From assembly GCA_963169355.1 (NCBI GenBank), contig CAUJCR010000012.1, forward strand, positions 62,001 to 126,000: 64,000 nt of DNA, given 5' to 3'. How positions within the stretch are numbered: position 1 is the stretch's first letter; every line of letters begins with the position of its first letter. The notes beneath the pieces were generated by a model. It saw only the letters and a list, made by a program, of their open reading frames with translations, was not told the DNA's origin and ran no database searches. Positions 42,553-48,920 of the stretch are shown here, piece after piece. The translations under genes and the position numbers were made by a program. Source of the DNA: Bacteroidota bacterium (GTDB lineage Bacteria > Bacteroidota > Bacteroidia > B-17B0 > Aurantibacillaceae).

Positions 42553-43248
42553 TTAAAACTCAAATTTATATCCTATTCCTTTAATGGTTTTAATATAGTC
42601 TTCGCCTAGTTTTTCTCGAAGCTTCCTAATATGTACGTCTATGGTTCTATCTCCTACCACTACTTCATCGCCCCATACTTGTTCTAATATAAATTCACGA
42701 GTAAATACTTTTCCGGGTTTACTAGCAAGTAACAACAATAACTTAAACTCCTTTTTAGGAAAATTTATTTCTATCCCATCTTTATATACTGAATGTCTTT
42801 CTCTGTCTATCTTAATGTTCCCTAAATCAATCTCAGAAGTTGGTTTTGGTGATGTTGTATTTCTTCTTAAAAGTGCTTTTATTCTACTTACAAAAACTCT
42901 TGGTTTAATTGGTTTTGTAATATAATCATCGGCACCCACTTCAAAGCCAGCTATTTGAGAATAATCTTCATTTCTAGCACTTAAAAATGCAATAACACAT
43001 TGTTGTAAGTTCTCGTGCTCTCTAATCTCCCTGCAAGTTTCAATACCATCTTTTTCTGGCATCATCACATCTAGCACAATTAAATTCGGTATTTCTTTCT
43101 TAGCTATCTTGAGCGCATCATTTCCATTAGTTGCTGTAAATACTTGAAAGCCTTCTTTGGATAAATTATAACTTAAAAAATCTAAGATGTCTTGTTCATC
43201 ATCTACTAATAAAATTTTATATAGATTATTTTCAATATTCATATTCAA
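42553..43248 (-). CDS. PhoB-like OmpR-family response regulator
   Basis: The 231-residue protein has an intact receiver: acidic pair Asp16-Asp17 (LLVDDEQD), phosphoacceptor Asp60 (LIVLDVMMPEKDG), Ser90 and Lys112 (YITKPI). The winged-helix output domain follows (about 135-231: FPKKEFKLLLLLASKPGKVF, VVVGDRTIDVHIRKLREKLG, TIKGIGYKFEF). Together these mark a phosphorylation-activated transcription factor of the PhoB/OmpR family. No histidine kinase is adjacent. It is divergent from the TonB receptor gene. It may control that gene and itself through the 43249-43407 region; a phosphate role is suggested by family resemblance only. Confidence 0.92.
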   Translation of the reverse strand: MNMNIENNLYKILLVDDEQDILDFLSYNLSKEGFQVFTATNGNDALKIAKKEIPNLIVLDVMMPEKDGIETCREIREHENLQQCVIAFLSARNEDYSQIAGFEVGADDYITKPIKPRVFVSRIKALLRRNTTSPKPTSEIDLGNIKIDRERHSVYKDGIEINFPKKEFKLLLLLASKPGKVFTREFILEQVWGDEVVVGDRTIDVHIRKLREKLGEDYIKTIKGIGYKFEF

Positions 43249-43323
43249 TAAATCAATGCTACAAAGTTACTTGATAGTAGATACACTAATGTTAAGTAAA
43301 TATTAAATTATACCATAAATAGT

Positions 43324-43348
43324 GAATCAAAATTAATATTTAATTAAT
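43324..43348 (+). promoter_or_regulatory. Shared upstream motif, copy 1 (before the TonB receptor)
   Basis: GAATCAAAATTA is followed by ATATTTAATTAAT. The same two blocks, with three extra bases between them, occur at 46338-46365 before the T9SS protein gene. It lies between the divergent regulator and receptor genes. It could be the binding site of the PhoB-like regulator. Confidence 0.4.
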
Positions 43349-43407
43349 TATTAGATGATTTTAAAGTGAAATTATGGTTGTTGTTTTGTGGAAAAACTAA
43401 TCAAGTT

Positions 43408-46308
43408 ATGAACACAAAATTAATTATCATATCACTACTTGCTTTTTCAAATTTAATTATAGCACAAAACGGCAGTATCACTGGAAAAGTGGTTGATTCA
43501 AAAACAGGTGAAGTATTACCAGGAGCCACAATATTAATTGAGGGAACAACAAAAGGAGTGTTGAGTGATTTTGAAGGAATCTACGCTATAAAGGGTTTGT
43601 TACCAGGAAAATATACCCTTATTTCTAGCTTTATAACATACGATAACAAGAAGAATATTGATGTTATTGTTAAAGCAAACGAAGTAACAGAATTTAATAT
43701 TGGCTTAGACCCATCAAGTTCTCAACAATTAACGGAGGTTGTTGTTCAAGCAGAAATGAATAAAGAAAATACAAATGCCATTTTATTTATGCAAAAAAAT
43801 AATGCAAGTGTCAGTGATGGTATTTCATCAGAAAGTATCAAAAAAACACCCGATAGAACAACAAGTGATGTTATAAAAAGAATCAGTGGTGCTACAATAC
43901 AAGACAATAAATTCGCCATTATTAGAGGAATGAGTGATAGATATAACACCGCTTATATAAATGGTGTTCCTTTACCTAGTTCAGAAAGTGATAAGAAAGC
44001 TTTTTCTTTTGATATTTTTCCATCTAATCTATTAGATAATATTATGATTATTAAAACAGCCACCCCTGATTTACCTGGCGATTTTGCAGGTGGTGTTATT
44101 CAAATTAATACGAAAGGTATTCCAAACAAAAACATGCAAAGTATCTCAATTGGGGCTGGTTATAATACACAAACAACATTTAAAGATATTAAAACCTATA
44201 AAGGAGGAAAAACTGATTGGCTTGGCATTGATGATGGAACAAGAGCGTTACCGAGTTCTCTTCCAACAACGAAAGATTTTTCACAAGATAAACTAGAGCA
44301 GATTAATTATGCTAAAATATTAAATTATGATTGGAGTTTACAAACTCAAAAAGCAATTCCTAACTTAAACCTACAATACTCATTAGCAAATGTAGGTAAG
44401 GTATTTAAAAGGAAAGCAGGGAGTATATTAGCAATCAACTATAACAATAACACAAATACAACATTTACAACTAGAAGAGATTTTTCGGAACAGGGCGAAA
44501 ATTATGAAATTATCAAGAATAGTGATTATCAAGACACCACATATACTAATAGCATTTTAGCAAGCGCACTTTGGAATTTAGCTTACAAACTAAATGACAA
44601 TAATCAAATTAGTTTAAAAAATCTATATAGCATAAATTCAGAAGATAAAGTAATAACCCGAAAGGGAGCATTAGATATAGGTAATAATAAATGGGAAAAG
44701 TCAAGTGCAAGATGGTTTACTCAAAATAAAATTTATTCGGGTCAATTAAATGGAGAACATAATATTGAAATTGCAAAAATCAAATTAAACTGGGTGGCAG
44801 GATATAGCCATATAAAAAGAGAGATGCCTAACTTAAGAGTAATGCGTTATACAAAAAGTTCAATCGAACAAAATGTAGAGGCTGATTCAACGCCTTACAC
44901 AGCAAACATTTTTACTAGTAACTCAACTTCAACTAGTAATGGTGGAACTATGTTATTTACAAAAACAGATGAGAGTATAAAAAGTATAAAATATGACTTA
45001 TCAAAAAACATTAAAATTAGTAAAACACAACATGAGTTAAAGTTAGGAGGAAATCATATTTACAGAGACAGAGCATTTACTGCAAGACTATTAGGTTATG
45101 GAATGTACAGAAAAAATTCATCATTAACCCCTAATACCAATTTACTATTGTTAGATGAATCAGAAATTTTTTCTCAATCGAACATGGGAATTATTGACGG
45201 ACCAGGTGTAAAAGACGGCGGTTTTTTATTAGTAGAAGCCACAACACCTAAAGATAGCTACCAAGCATCTTCGTTATTAAACGCAGGCTATTTATCAATT
45301 GACTCAAAATTCTTTGACCGTTTAAGATTTATATATGGCGCAAGAATTGAATCTTATAATCAAAAAATTACCTACTTTTTAAAACCTGATGAAGCAACTA
45401 CAAATGACACCACTGTAATAGACATCTTACCCTCAATTAATGCAGTATATAGCATAACAGAAAAAACAAATCTTAGATTATCCTACTACAGAACAGTATC
45501 TAGACCAGAGTTTAGGGAATTAGTACCATTTACATTTGTAGATTTTTCTAATGGATTTAGTATTGATGGGAATCCAACATTAATAAGAGGAAAGGTAGAT
45601 AACTACGATATAAGAGGTGAATGGTTTCCAGGCGTTGGGCAATTGGTTTCAATATCTGGCTTTTACAAACGAATTACTAATGCAACAGAAATGGCTGTGA
45701 ATGCAGCTTCACAAATTAAGAGTTTAACTTATGTAAACGTTCCATTAGTAGAAAACATAGGACTTGAATTAGAATATCGCATTAAATTAAGTAGTCTCTT
45801 TAAAAATGATTCATTAAACATCATTAAAAACACCTCATTCTTCTCAAATTTTGCCTATATACATTCTAAAGTAGATGTAAGTAAAATTAATGGTTCTGGT
45901 GCCTCCACTCGTCCACTTCAAGGCCAATCTCCCTACATTATTAATACAGGAATACAGTATTTGGATAATGAGAACGGATGGGGAGTTAGCTTATCCTATA
46001 ATGTAATTGGAAGAAGAATAGTAATTGTTGGTTCCACTGCAGAGCCCGACTTTTATGAAGCTCCAAGACATGTATTAGACTTACAATTATCTAAAACTAT
46101 CAAACAGAAATTTGAGATAAAACTAAACCTACGAGATATCTTGGCACAAAGACAAATTTGGTATCAAGACATTAATAAAAATGGAAAGCTTGATAAAAAT
46201 GCTGAAAAAGAAAGTCAAAACCTCACACATTCAAGCAATATAGACAATGTAATGTTTAATACAAAACTAGCACCTACTATATCTTTATCGTTATCCTACA
46301 AATTTTAG
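43408..46308 (+). CDS. TonB-dependent outer membrane receptor with carboxypeptidase-like N-terminal domain
   Basis: From ATG 43408 (MNTKLIIISLLAFSNLIIAQ, a signal peptide) the protein has 966 residues; the frame's earlier GTG is unlikely. Residues 22-105 are a CarboxypepD_reg-like domain (GSITGKVVDSKTGEVLPGAT, GTTKGVLSDFEGIYAIKGL). A plug follows (TPDRTTSDVIKRISGATIQD, IIRGMSDRYNTAYINGVPLP, FAGGVIQINTKG), then a 22-strand barrel ending SLSLSYKF. It imports a nutrient or siderophore across the outer membrane with TonB energy. The neighbouring response regulator and T9SS protein, with a shared upstream motif, suggest a co-regulated uptake unit; the ligand is unknown. Confidence 0.92.
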   Translation: MNTKLIIISLLAFSNLIIAQNGSITGKVVDSKTGEVLPGATILIEGTTKGVLSDFEGIYAIKGLLPGKYTLISSFITYDNKKNIDVIVKANEVTEFNIGLDPSSSQQLTEVVVQAEMNKENTNAILFMQKNNASVSDGISSESIKKTPDRTTSDVIKRISGATIQDNKFAIIRGMSDRYNTAYINGVPLPSSESDKKAFSFDIFPSNLLDNIMIIKTATPDLPGDFAGGVIQINTKGIPNKNMQSISIGAGYNTQTTFKDIKTYKGGKTDWLGIDDGTRALPSSLPTTKDFSQDKLEQINYAKILNYDWSLQTQKAIPNLNLQYSLANVGKVFKRKAGSILAINYNNNTNTTFTTRRDFSEQGENYEIIKNSDYQDTTYTNSILASALWNLAYKLNDNNQISLKNLYSINSEDKVITRKGALDIGNNKWEKSSARWFTQNKIYSGQLNGEHNIEIAKIKLNWVAGYSHIKREMPNLRVMRYTKSSIEQNVEADSTPYTANIFTSNSTSTSNGGTMLFTKTDESIKSIKYDLSKNIKISKTQHELKLGGNHIYRDRAFTARLLGYGMYRKNSSLTPNTNLLLLDESEIFSQSNMGIIDGPGVKDGGFLLVEATTPKDSYQASSLLNAGYLSIDSKFFDRLRFIYGARIESYNQKITYFLKPDEATTNDTTVIDILPSINAVYSITEKTNLRLSYYRTVSRPEFRELVPFTFVDFSNGFSIDGNPTLIRGKVDNYDIRGEWFPGVGQLVSISGFYKRITNATEMAVNAASQIKSLTYVNVPLVENIGLELEYRIKLSSLFKNDSLNIIKNTSFFSNFAYIHSKVDVSKINGSGASTRPLQGQSPYIINTGIQYLDNENGWGVSLSYNVIGRRIVIVGSTAEPDFYEAPRHVLDLQLSKTIKQKFEIKLNLRDILAQRQIWYQDINKNGKLDKNAEKESQNLTHSSNIDNVMFNTKLAPTISLSLSYKF

Positions 46309-46337: not shown

Positions 46338-46427
46338 GAATCGAAATTATTAATATTCAATTAATATAATTATAAATTTTACATAAGATTTATTTAATGT
46401 TCAAGAAAGATTGCTGAAATAATTTTG
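46338..46427 (+). promoter_or_regulatory. Shared upstream motif, copy 2, and -7 box of the T9SS protein gene
   Basis: GAATCGAAATTA, TTA and ATATTCAATTAAT (46338-46365) repeat the motif seen at 43324-43348. A TAATTTTG -7 box is at 46420-46427, 25 bases before the ATG at 46452. This indicates a separate but similarly regulated promoter for the downstream gene. Confidence 0.45.
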
Positions 46428-46451: not shown

Positions 46452-48179
46452 ATGAAAAAAACTTATTTATCTGCGGCTTTACTTGCCAGCTCATTTTTAA
46501 CCGCACAGTCGCCATTTACATGGGATGTTACAACATACAAAGGCGCATTTCCAGTAACTGACAATACACCAGCAACAGATTGGACTTCTGGTTGGGCAAA
46601 TTGGGATCCCGAAAACACCGTTTATGCTGCTCCTACATCAACCATTACTGGAGATATTTCAACTAATACTTCGATAAGTGGTGTTGTGTATCTAGACGGT
46701 ATTGTGCATGTTAAGAACAATGCCATACTTACCATTGCGCCAGGCACAATTATTAGATGTAAATCAAATGATGTAAGCTTAAATCCTGGAACGCTCGTAA
46801 TCACAAAAGGCTCTAAAATTAATGCACAAGGCACAGCATCACAACCCATCGTTTTTACATCAAACAATTCAGTTAATGATGGTCGTAATCCTGGCGATTG
46901 GGGAGGGATTATCTTATTAGGGGATGCTGTAATAAATACAGGAGGCGTTTCTACTAATCCAAATGTAAGCAGAATTGAAGGTTTTGCAACAAATGACCCA
47001 TTAAGATATTATGGAGGTACAAATGACGCTGATGATTCAGGAATTTTATCTTATGTTAGAATTGAATTTGCAGGAGTTGCATTAGACCCATTACAATCAA
47101 ACTCAGAAATTAATGGTTTAACGCTAGGAGGAGTTGGTTCTGGTACACAGATTGACCATGTGCAAGTTTCATTTTGTGGCGATGATGCCTTTGAATGGTT
47201 TGGCGGGACAGTTGATGCAAAATATTTAATTGCATACAGAACAATTGATGATGATTTTGATACTGATTATGGATATAGAGGACGCGTACAATTTGGCTTA
47301 GGTGTTAAAGATCCTAATCTTTGGGATGCCATCTCAGGTGGTGCAAGTAACGGAATAGAATCGGATAACAATGGCACCTCTCCATATTTAGCACTACCAC
47401 TAACAAAACCTGTATTTTCTAATTTTACTTTTATAGGTGCTAAAGGAGATGGATCGGTGTACGGTTCGGGGAGTTTACCCGTTGGTGAAGCACACGAAGC
47501 AGCGGCGCACATACGTCGTAACTCTTCACATTCAATATTTAATTCACTTATTTTAGGTTACGAAAAAGGATTACGTTTACAAAATGCTGTAACGCAAGAT
47601 AATTTTAATGCTCCATCAAACGCTGATTCGGTTGCTGTAATTGCAAATGTTAACATTACATCTGAAATCCCTTCTACTTATATAACCGAATCGGCTACTG
47701 TTTTTAATCAAAGTTGGTATCATAACTATTCCGTTTCAAATAACATTGATACAGTTACTACAATTGCTCAGATTAATTTTGTAAATGCTTTTGTGCCTCT
47801 AGGGTCAACACCAGACTATCGCCTTTCTGCCACTTCGGCAGCAGCAACTGGCGCATCATTTACGCATCCAGCATTTGTTGGTGGTTTCACAGGCATTGAA
47901 GATAACATCCATCTAATTAAAAATTCCTTTAATGTATTTCCTAATCCAACCTCAGAAAGTACTACTCTAACATTTGATATTAAAGAAGAAAGTAAGGTTA
48001 CAATTGCCTTATATGATATACTAGGCAACTTAGTTGATTTAATCTCAAACAACGATTCATTTGAAAAAGGACATCATTCTATGAAAGTTAGTACTTCTCA
48101 TTTATTAAGTGGGGTTTACTTTATTTCAATTGAATTAAACAACACAAAAGAAACCAAAAAAGTAATTATTAATCATTAA
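46452..48179 (+). CDS. Secreted protein with T9SS type A sorting domain, partner of the TonB receptor
   Basis: The 575-residue protein has a signal peptide (YLSAALLASSFLTAQ). Its body is beta-helix-like: GVVYLDGIVHVKNNAILTIA, PGTIIRC, GSKINAQGTASQPIVFTSNN, GDWGGIILLGDAVINTGG, and later YVRIEFAGVALDP and GDDAFEWFGGTVDAKYLIAY. The type A sorting domain closes it: NSFNVFPNPTSES, IALYDILGNLVDL, LLSGVYFISIEL. Similar proteins are often paired with TonB receptors in Bacteroidota. Probably a surface protein working with the receptor; the substrate is not known. A strong terminator follows. Confidence 0.88.
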   Translation: MKKTYLSAALLASSFLTAQSPFTWDVTTYKGAFPVTDNTPATDWTSGWANWDPENTVYAAPTSTITGDISTNTSISGVVYLDGIVHVKNNAILTIAPGTIIRCKSNDVSLNPGTLVITKGSKINAQGTASQPIVFTSNNSVNDGRNPGDWGGIILLGDAVINTGGVSTNPNVSRIEGFATNDPLRYYGGTNDADDSGILSYVRIEFAGVALDPLQSNSEINGLTLGGVGSGTQIDHVQVSFCGDDAFEWFGGTVDAKYLIAYRTIDDDFDTDYGYRGRVQFGLGVKDPNLWDAISGGASNGIESDNNGTSPYLALPLTKPVFSNFTFIGAKGDGSVYGSGSLPVGEAHEAAAHIRRNSSHSIFNSLILGYEKGLRLQNAVTQDNFNAPSNADSVAVIANVNITSEIPSTYITESATVFNQSWYHNYSVSNNIDTVTTIAQINFVNAFVPLGSTPDYRLSATSAAATGASFTHPAFVGGFTGIEDNIHLIKNSFNVFPNPTSESTTLTFDIKEESKVTIALYDILGNLVDLISNNDSFEKGHHSMKVSTSHLLSGVYFISIELNNTKETKKVIINH

Positions 48180-48192
48180 TTCAATTTTACTT

Positions 48193-48221
48193 AAAGGTGC
48201 AAACATTGAGTTTGCACCTTT
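48193..48221 (+). terminator. Intrinsic terminator abutting the atypical regulator gene
   Basis: AAAGGTGCAAAC (48193-48204) and GTTTGCACCTTT (48210-48221) form a perfect 12-bp stem with a 5-base loop, followed by ATATTTATGG. The ATG of the next gene is at 48228, only 6 bases after the stem, leaving no room for a promoter between them. The next gene must be reached by read-through. Confidence 0.85.
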
Positions 48222-48227
48222 ATATTT

Positions 48228-48920
48228 ATGGAAAATACATTCCACATAGTTCTAGTTTCAAATCAAAAAACATTTGCTAAAAATGTAGTTCCCATCTTAG
48301 AAGAAGATAAAAATAAAATTTCAATTATCAGTTCAGAAAAAGCTCTTTACACCCTACTTAACAGAGGAAAGGTTGATCTGATATTGATAGAACTTGACTT
48401 CAAACCAAAAGATGGGATTACGCTAACTGGTGAGATAAAAAATTATAAAAAATTTAAATCACCACATATCATGTTATACTCTAACAAACTGGATGATTAT
48501 ATACAAATTATTGCATATAACTCAGGTGTTGATGATTTTATATCATCAAATATAAACCCAGCATTATTGAAAGCTCGTATCTCATCCATTAAAAATCGAT
48601 TAACTAAAATTTATACAAGCACGAAACGCACACCAATAGAATCAAATTTCTATGTTGATAAAGAGCAATATTTAATTCATACTTCCAAAGGGAAAATAAG
48701 CTTACCGAAAAAAGAATTTGAATTAATTAATTTAATGTACAAGAACAACAAAAAAGTATTTACTAGGAAAGAATTTACAATGCTAATTTGGAATCTGAAT
48801 GAACCTACTAAAAGCAGAAGAATTGATACTCATATTAGGAATATTCGTAAAGTTCTTGGAAAAGAGGTTATAAAAACCATCAAAGGAAAAGGCTATAGCA
48901 TTAATAATGAAATGCTATAA
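48228..48920 (+). CDS. OmpR-family regulator with a degenerate receiver domain (Glu at the phosphoacceptor position)
   Basis: The 230-residue protein keeps the response-regulator layout but lacks the phosphorylation residues. The acidic pair is Ser-Asn (VLVSNQKT), the phosphoacceptor position is Glu55 (LILIELDFKPKDG), and the conserved Lys is Ser107 (FISSNINP). The winged helix is intact (LPKKEFELINLMYKNNKKVF, SRRIDTHIRNIRKVLGKEVI, TIKGKGYSI) and close to that of the regulator at 42553. It probably acts without phosphorylation, perhaps in a locked form, at sites overlapping those of its relative. It sits directly behind the terminator of the T9SS gene. Confidence 0.88.
   Translation: MENTFHIVLVSNQKTFAKNVVPILEEDKNKISIISSEKALYTLLNRGKVDLILIELDFKPKDGITLTGEIKNYKKFKSPHIMLYSNKLDDYIQIIAYNSGVDDFISSNINPALLKARISSIKNRLTKIYTSTKRTPIESNFYVDKEQYLIHTSKGKISLPKKEFELINLMYKNNKKVFTRKEFTMLIWNLNEPTKSRRIDTHIRNIRKVLGKEVIKTIKGKGYSINNEML

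Follow-up and report, generated by a model that had tools for sequence, protein, structure and literature searches.

A conserved family of PhoB paralogues with degenerate receivers at apparent phosphate-scavenging loci of Bacteroidota

We characterized a PhoB paralogue, here called RR2, that is encoded in the window (the whole 64-kb stretch of DNA analysed) and that belongs, as judged by sequence comparison, to a wider clade of PhoB paralogues in phosphate-scavenging loci. Alignments indicate that the traits common to the family are the loss of the second acidic pocket residue together with a rewritten activation loop. Our leading reading, to which we give a little less than even weight, is that RR2 is a PhoB-induced, non-phosphorylatable and probably non-activating paralogue whose activity is set by its amount and which likely acts as a feedback antagonist. 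Pseudo-receiver regulators are already known as a kind, and RR2 is a real, conserved and well-placed example of them. The features of the locus are collected in Table 1.

Table 1. Features of the RR2 locus in the window
Feature	Coordinates	Strand	Remarks
PhoB-like response regulator, canonical DD-D-S-K	42553..43248	-	divergent, front of locus
Pho-box-like 11-bp direct repeat upstream of phoB	43288..43307	-	best match in 64-kb window, 25.2 bits
Pho-box-like repeat upstream of TonB receptor	43332..43351	+	second-best, 15.5
TonB-dependent receptor	43366..46308	+	signal peptide suggests true start near 43408
Weaker Pho-box-like repeat upstream of T9 gene	46349..46368	+	third-best, 12.5
T9, surface protein that carries a type IX secretion tail and weakly resembles a beta-helix	46452..48179	+	
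Terminator-like hairpin, 13-bp perfect stem	48192..48222	+	12 nt past T9 stop, 5 nt before RR2 start
RR2, pseudo-receiver PhoB paralogue, 230 aa, ATG start	48228..48920	+	Glu55 codon 48390-48392
RR2 receiver domain, residues 6-124	48243..48599	+	pocket degenerate (S11 N12 E55 S85 S107); α4-β5-α5 face conserved
RR2 winged-helix DNA-binding domain, residues 142-226	48651..48905	+	activation loop rewritten

RR2 consists of a receiver followed by a winged-helix Trans_reg_C domain, the domain order of the OmpR/PhoB subfamily (Pfam E-values of 3.1e-10 for Response_reg and 2.9e-16 for Trans_reg_C). The AlphaFold model has a mean pLDDT of 85 and its predicted receiver matched receiver folds at 1.4-2 Å. 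RR2 is a pseudo-receiver protein in that the receiver fold is recognised in both sequence and model, residues of the catalytic set of five are missing and the acceptor is not Asp. In the alignment, S11, N12, E55, S85 and S107 of RR2 stand opposite D16, D17, D60, S90 and K112 of the PhoB-like neighbour, and every residue change listed by the first-pass annotation (Glu55, SN for DD, Ser107 for Lys) was correct. The DNA-binding domain had also been called close to that of the neighbour; the quoted motifs are indeed present, but "close" is generous for 39% identity (receivers: 23%). With 85.3 bits against the curated NCBIfam cut-off of 296.2, RR2 falls outside the PhoB orthologues. PhoB is the best NCBIfam family for the neighbour, yet its 225.9 bits are likewise below the cut-off. 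For one pair (window versus G018), dN/dS was 0.15 over the RR2 gene, 0.16 for the receiver and 0.06 for the DNA-binding domain, and the gene is thus under purifying selection.

On the plus strand the TonB-dependent receptor gene is followed by T9 and then by RR2 as the last of three genes. The earlier description of a PhoB-type twin with a dead pocket at a PhoB/TonB-receptor locus is supported. PhoB, TonB receptor and FII-like surface protein follow one another as in loci of the PUSIV type (PMC8115612, Table 1), represented in F. johnsoniae by Fjoh_0543 (PhoR), 0544 (PhoB), 0545 (TBDT) and 0546 (FII, beta-helix-like), where the phoBR-TBDT-FII cluster is induced by low phosphate (PMC8115612). 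The main text of that paper names no second regulator for PUSIV and leaves Fjoh_0547 and 0548 unmentioned. A PhoR-like kinase gene adjoins the orthologous phoB in G024, a genome from another genus of the same family; in the window's genome it is located elsewhere (66% identity). The structure model of T9 (pLDDT 76) gave weak beta-helix matches only, e.g. to tailspikes and a pectate lyase. These predicted matches fit the pectin-lyase-like annotation of FII, although homology is not thereby proven, and T9 resembles F. johnsoniae FII in position and predicted fold. In one genome (L040:8554-11940) the T9 protein is fused or extended to 1128 aa.

Orthologues carrying Glu at the acceptor position were found in 17 other genomes of the window's genus and in G024. 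Glu55 and Asn12 are invariant in all 19 Glu-type members (the window's and 18 orthologues of 43-86% identity), although only 25 of the 119 receiver columns are invariant, and positions 85 and 107 hold Ser or Thr in 19/19. The first-pass annotation had proposed to check the conservation of Glu55: with Glu kept in 18/18 orthologues and a dN/dS of 0.15, a local mutation or a pseudogene was rejected. RR2s with checked residues are present in at least 60 of the 87 family genomes searched, namely in at least 18/20 of g1 (the window's genus), 32/40 of g2, 6/8 of g8 and four of g5-g7, and 11 further RR2s came from Flavobacteriales/Vicingaceae (Flavo) records. Wherever a locus combines a TonB receptor with two regulators, one of these is canonical and the other degenerate. 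In the Flavo loci uncut by contig ends, RR2 and phoB flank the receptor/surface pair, one on each side.

The second pocket acid is absent from 71/71 distinct RR2s and none of them retains both acids, a count that is partly circular for L150-L183, where RR2 was told from PhoB by the pocket itself. The pocket is canonical in all 43 PhoBs compared alongside. The acceptor residue is Asn in 31, Asp in 20, Glu in 19 and His in one RR2. Four loci present under two names each were counted once, and L184 (LTDSK, without TonB-receptor/T9 neighbours) was excluded from the counts. L060 (SD-D-S-K, on a long branch within the RR2 clade of a quick tree) was left out of both the careful tree and the final counts; if included, the second acid is lost in 71/72.

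For the careful tree, the near-duplicates L037, L043, L045 and L057 were removed and 6 of 30 g2 RR2s were added. All 43 RR2 rows fell on one side of a branch with support 100/98 (L060 left out), and the clade that they form is attached on the PhoB side. The Glu type forms one clade (99/95) whose sister is the g2 Asn type (96/96). Since Glu is confined to one clade with an Asn-type sister inside a wider RR2 branch, it represents a single late state within a pseudo-receiver family that is older. L056 (DSDTK) and L061b (DDDTK) lie just outside the RR2 clade and were not counted as RR2; the loops of both near relatives are already altered, with the pocket of L061b intact and that of L056 reading DS-D-T-K. 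At L061:2790-3476 (minus strand), a PhoB paralogue with intact pocket and altered activation loop adjoins phoBR and may represent an early RR2 stage.

In E. coli PhoB, the mutations W184R, G185R, V190M and D192G abolish activation (PMC3973317). The corresponding loop positions are invariant as W, G, V and D in 43/43 Bacteroidota PhoBs. In the RR2s, W184 is kept in 71/71, G185 and V190 are each lost in 71/71 and D192 is lost in 69/71, with the V190M change itself found in four of them. Mainly because of these losses, at positions whose mutation abolishes activation by E. coli PhoB, we favour an antagonist. This argument transfers findings on E. coli PhoB and sigma-70 to Bacteroidota, where the contact with RNA polymerase may differ, so that an altered loop may signify an altered partner. 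The DNA-binding residues R193, H198 and R203 are kept in 71/71 RR2s. At the base-contact position of Arg201, 43/43 PhoBs and the 11 Flavo RR2s have Lys, whereas the remaining 60 RR2s have Asn; in addition, the 32 g2 RR2s carry Tyr at position 200. Owing to these two positions, RR2 could possibly read other sites.

Helix α1 of receivers docks kinases. When PhoB and RR2 of the same genome were compared, α1 was 5-17% identical across groups versus 35-59% for the α4-β5-α5 dimer face. Within the Glu clade, whole-receiver identity was 61%; it rose to 90% in α4 and 79% in α4-β5-α5 and fell to 41% in α1. Judging from these comparisons, the kinase-docking helix of RR2 has diverged while the predicted dimer face is conserved. 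Ser or Thr occupies the coupling position in 71/71 RR2s, and 70/71 retain the aromatic residue at K-3; both coupling residues are kept in only 47% of pseudo-receivers according to a review (PMC12632262).

An 11-bp direct repeat lies upstream of the g2 RR2 genes (TTTAATATTAAATTAACA) and shares its 7+4+7 layout with known PhoB/PhoP sites (PMC4832192). We built a repeat matrix from 28/30 g2 RR2 sites, i.e. from another genus than the window's, and scanned both strands of the window; matches at g2 RR2 promoters are circular because the matrix was trained on them, whereas those at phoB and in other groups are not. The score of the minus-strand site at 43288 (25.2 bits) was reached by 0/60 shuffled windows. 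A maximum of at least 15.5 occurred in 12/60 shuffles, and the TonB-receptor and T9 repeats are thus not individually significant in the window. The region 43249-43365 is the divergent phoB/TonB-receptor intergenic region and carries repeats on both strands. A further repeat-like match (11.0) at 47531-47550 on the plus strand lies within the T9 gene and is either a possible internal RR2 promoter or chance. A scan for sigma-70-type promoters yielded 23 matches versus 31.2 in shuffles and hence no excess.

Using the simple repeat form TTAAY-N6-TTAAY, matches were found upstream of phoB in 13/13 cases in g1/g6, 24/26 in g2, 7/7 in Flavo, 1/1 in g7 and 0/5 in g8, compared with 26/373 upstream of other ORFs as a control. 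In g8, 5/6 phoB promoters reached a matrix score of 12. Upstream of RR2, the simple form is present in 24/32 cases in g2, 10/11 in Flavobacteriales/Vicingaceae and 1/3 in g5/g7, but in 0/17 in g1/g6 and 0/6 in g8, where RR2 thus has no Pho box of its own in this form. A matrix score of 12 was reached by 0/26 TonB-receptor promoters and 0/31 T9 promoters of g2. The receptor promoter of g1 relatives shows four half-sites with an 11-bp period (TTAATA, GTAATA, TTGACA, CTTAAC), and searching the genus for the g1 TonB-receptor box pattern returned mostly the same locus and few other matches.

The terminator-like hairpin is present in 17/19 Glu-type loci; of the other two, L049 is cut by a contig end with the 3' part visible and L048 is rearranged. 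It starts 11-20 nt after the T9 stop where measurable and ends 5-15 nt before the RR2 start in 15/17 loci (L044: 54 nt, L045: 46 nt). Relatives differ by compensatory changes in the stem, e.g. A-T/G-C, G-C/A-T and T-A/C-G between the window and L036. Stem pairs were lined up from the loop outward because MAFFT aligned the window's hairpin rows out of register. In exact searches the stem matched this locus alone, once per genome, in 7 of the 20 genus genomes and in the genome that contains the window. Read-through past the hairpin would be the simplest route to RR2 mRNA in the window's clade. In L048 (G014), upstream of 9998, RR2 is preceded by the start of a TonB-receptor gene instead of T9, by rearrangement or assembly error.

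From these features we infer the following mechanism. A duplication of PhoB would have given rise to RR2, which would form part of the phosphate-starvation locus in which it is located. Lacking the residues that hold Mg2+ and take phosphate, its receiver would need no kinase and would escape phosphorylation, so that RR2 activity would be set by the quantity made. Under low phosphate, phosphorylated PhoB would bind at the repeats and drive expression of the receptor and the surface protein, as well as that of RR2, either directly or through leakage. In some lineages this would occur via RR2's own Pho box; in the window's lineage, RR2 would result from read-through past a terminator ending the PhoB-driven TonB-receptor/T9 operon. 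The receiver would be retained as a dimerisation module; the DNA-binding helix keeps most PhoB contact residues, but the loop by which PhoB recruits RNA polymerase is replaced. By sitting on Pho boxes or pairing with PhoB, yet failing to activate, RR2 would then cap the Pho response as a feedback limiter. Competition of RR2 with PhoB is plausible, and RR2 as a brake is our best guess. The most far-reaching form of the proposal is a dedicated dominant-negative PhoB built into the phosphate locus of two or more Bacteroidota groups, induced by PhoB, blind to phosphorylation, dead for activation and dosed by a private Pho box or by leakage through the terminator adjoining its start codon so as to cap the starvation response; this we put forward as a possibility about which we have considerable doubt.

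RitR of Streptococcus is a redox sensor with a linker Cys. It was the best solved Foldseek match of RR2 (5u8m) and likewise combines an Asp-less receiver with a PhoB-type DNA-binding domain; the titles of the RitR structure entries returned name redox sensing and Cys128 mutants. Unlike RitR, the window's RR2 has no Cys in its 230-aa translation, and RitR-like redox sensing was rejected for this reason. The dimers of WhiI and BldM (Streptomyces) are of the NarL type. Here, an atypical regulator alters gene choice by heterodimerising with its partner (PMC12632262), although the targets, unlike those expected for RR2, are developmental genes. CmrT of the Clostridioides difficile CmrRST system is likewise an OmpR-type pseudo-receiver protein encoded alongside a canonical regulator (PMC12548384, PMC12632262). 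CmrR, the canonical partner, autoactivates the operon, and CmrT forms homodimers as well as heterodimers in pull-downs (PMC12548384, PMC12632262). In contrast to RR2 at its phosphate locus, CmrT controls motility and colony form, and a common origin of CmrR and CmrT through duplication is doubted by the authors of that work (PMC12548384), whereas the RR2 clade is attached to the PhoB side of its tree. ChxR (Chlamydia) and HP1043 (Helicobacter) are also OmpR/PhoB-type regulators with degenerate receivers and are described as working without phosphorylation. ChxR shares with the window's RR2 a Glu at the phosphorylation site (PMC4395418), while HP1043, unlike RR2 with its tie to PhoB and a transport operon, is described as an orphan regulator.

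CmrT provides a precedent for the main competing explanation, in which RR2 is a constitutively active second-tier activator that is made by PhoB and drives a sub-regulon, perhaps its own operon, by contacting the polymerase in another way, as in the cascade proposed to run from CmrR to CmrT (PMC12632262, PMC12548384). The expression logic would be the same as for an antagonist, with the same Pho-box-like repeats and operon position, and the K to N change at recognition-helix position 201 in 60/71 RR2s would fit new sites. We nevertheless consider such an activator unlikely, given that essentially every RR2 has replacements at the residues required for activation by E. coli PhoB and that no second conserved motif was recognised by eye beside the Pho-box-like repeat in g1 TonB-receptor promoters. 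A decaying duplicate without function would explain the loss of catalytic residues but is highly improbable in view of the dN/dS of 0.15, the retention in at least 60/87 family genomes and the invariant residues.

Two further explanations centre on the pocket itself. RR2 might be switched by a ligand or protein partner in a rebuilt pocket (Asn12-Glu55-Ser/Thr85-Ser/Thr107), as the constancy of all four positions in 19/19 Glu-type members could suggest. Pocket chemistry, however, varies by lineage (g2 combines an Asn acceptor with Phe, g8 an Asp acceptor with Leu) at an unchanged locus, and the Cys of RitR has no counterpart in the window's RR2, which makes a switch of this kind improbable. The first-pass annotation had called Glu55 phosphomimetic-like and RR2 a possibly locked twin; on this reading, Glu55 would lock RR2 in the active state. 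An exchange of Asp for Glu can partly activate receivers (PMC12632262), and both the invariance of Glu in its own clade and the retained Ser/Thr and aromatic coupling residues would be compatible with such a lock. As the key to the family it did not hold up: the sister clades carry Asn, Asp or His at the acceptor, and phosphomimicry was rejected as a family-defining trait on that basis. The conserved, charge-reading Lys is moreover replaced by Ser or Thr in 19/19 Glu types, exchange of Asp for Glu alone is often insufficient, with PhoB named among the cases (PMC4395418), and changing the Glu of ChxR to Asp or Ala left DNA binding unabolished (PMC4395418). We thus regard a Glu55 lock as very doubtful; phosphomimicry may bias the branch that carries Glu, but the family as a whole cannot be explained by it.

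The control and roles of pseudo-receivers are described as open in a 2025 review (PMC12632262). The 71 distinct RR2s provide a natural series for this problem, with the partner regulator adjoining in most and with candidate binding sites; within it, the acceptor, the pocket, the kinase and dimer faces and the activation loop changed at different times. No pseudo-receiver at a PhoB locus of Bacteroidota was found in searches of an open-access library. If RR2 limits PhoB, it would constitute a feedback brake on phosphate scavenging in many Bacteroidota that is unreported in the literature found. Such a brake, if true, would matter for models of phosphorus turnover by Bacteroidota.
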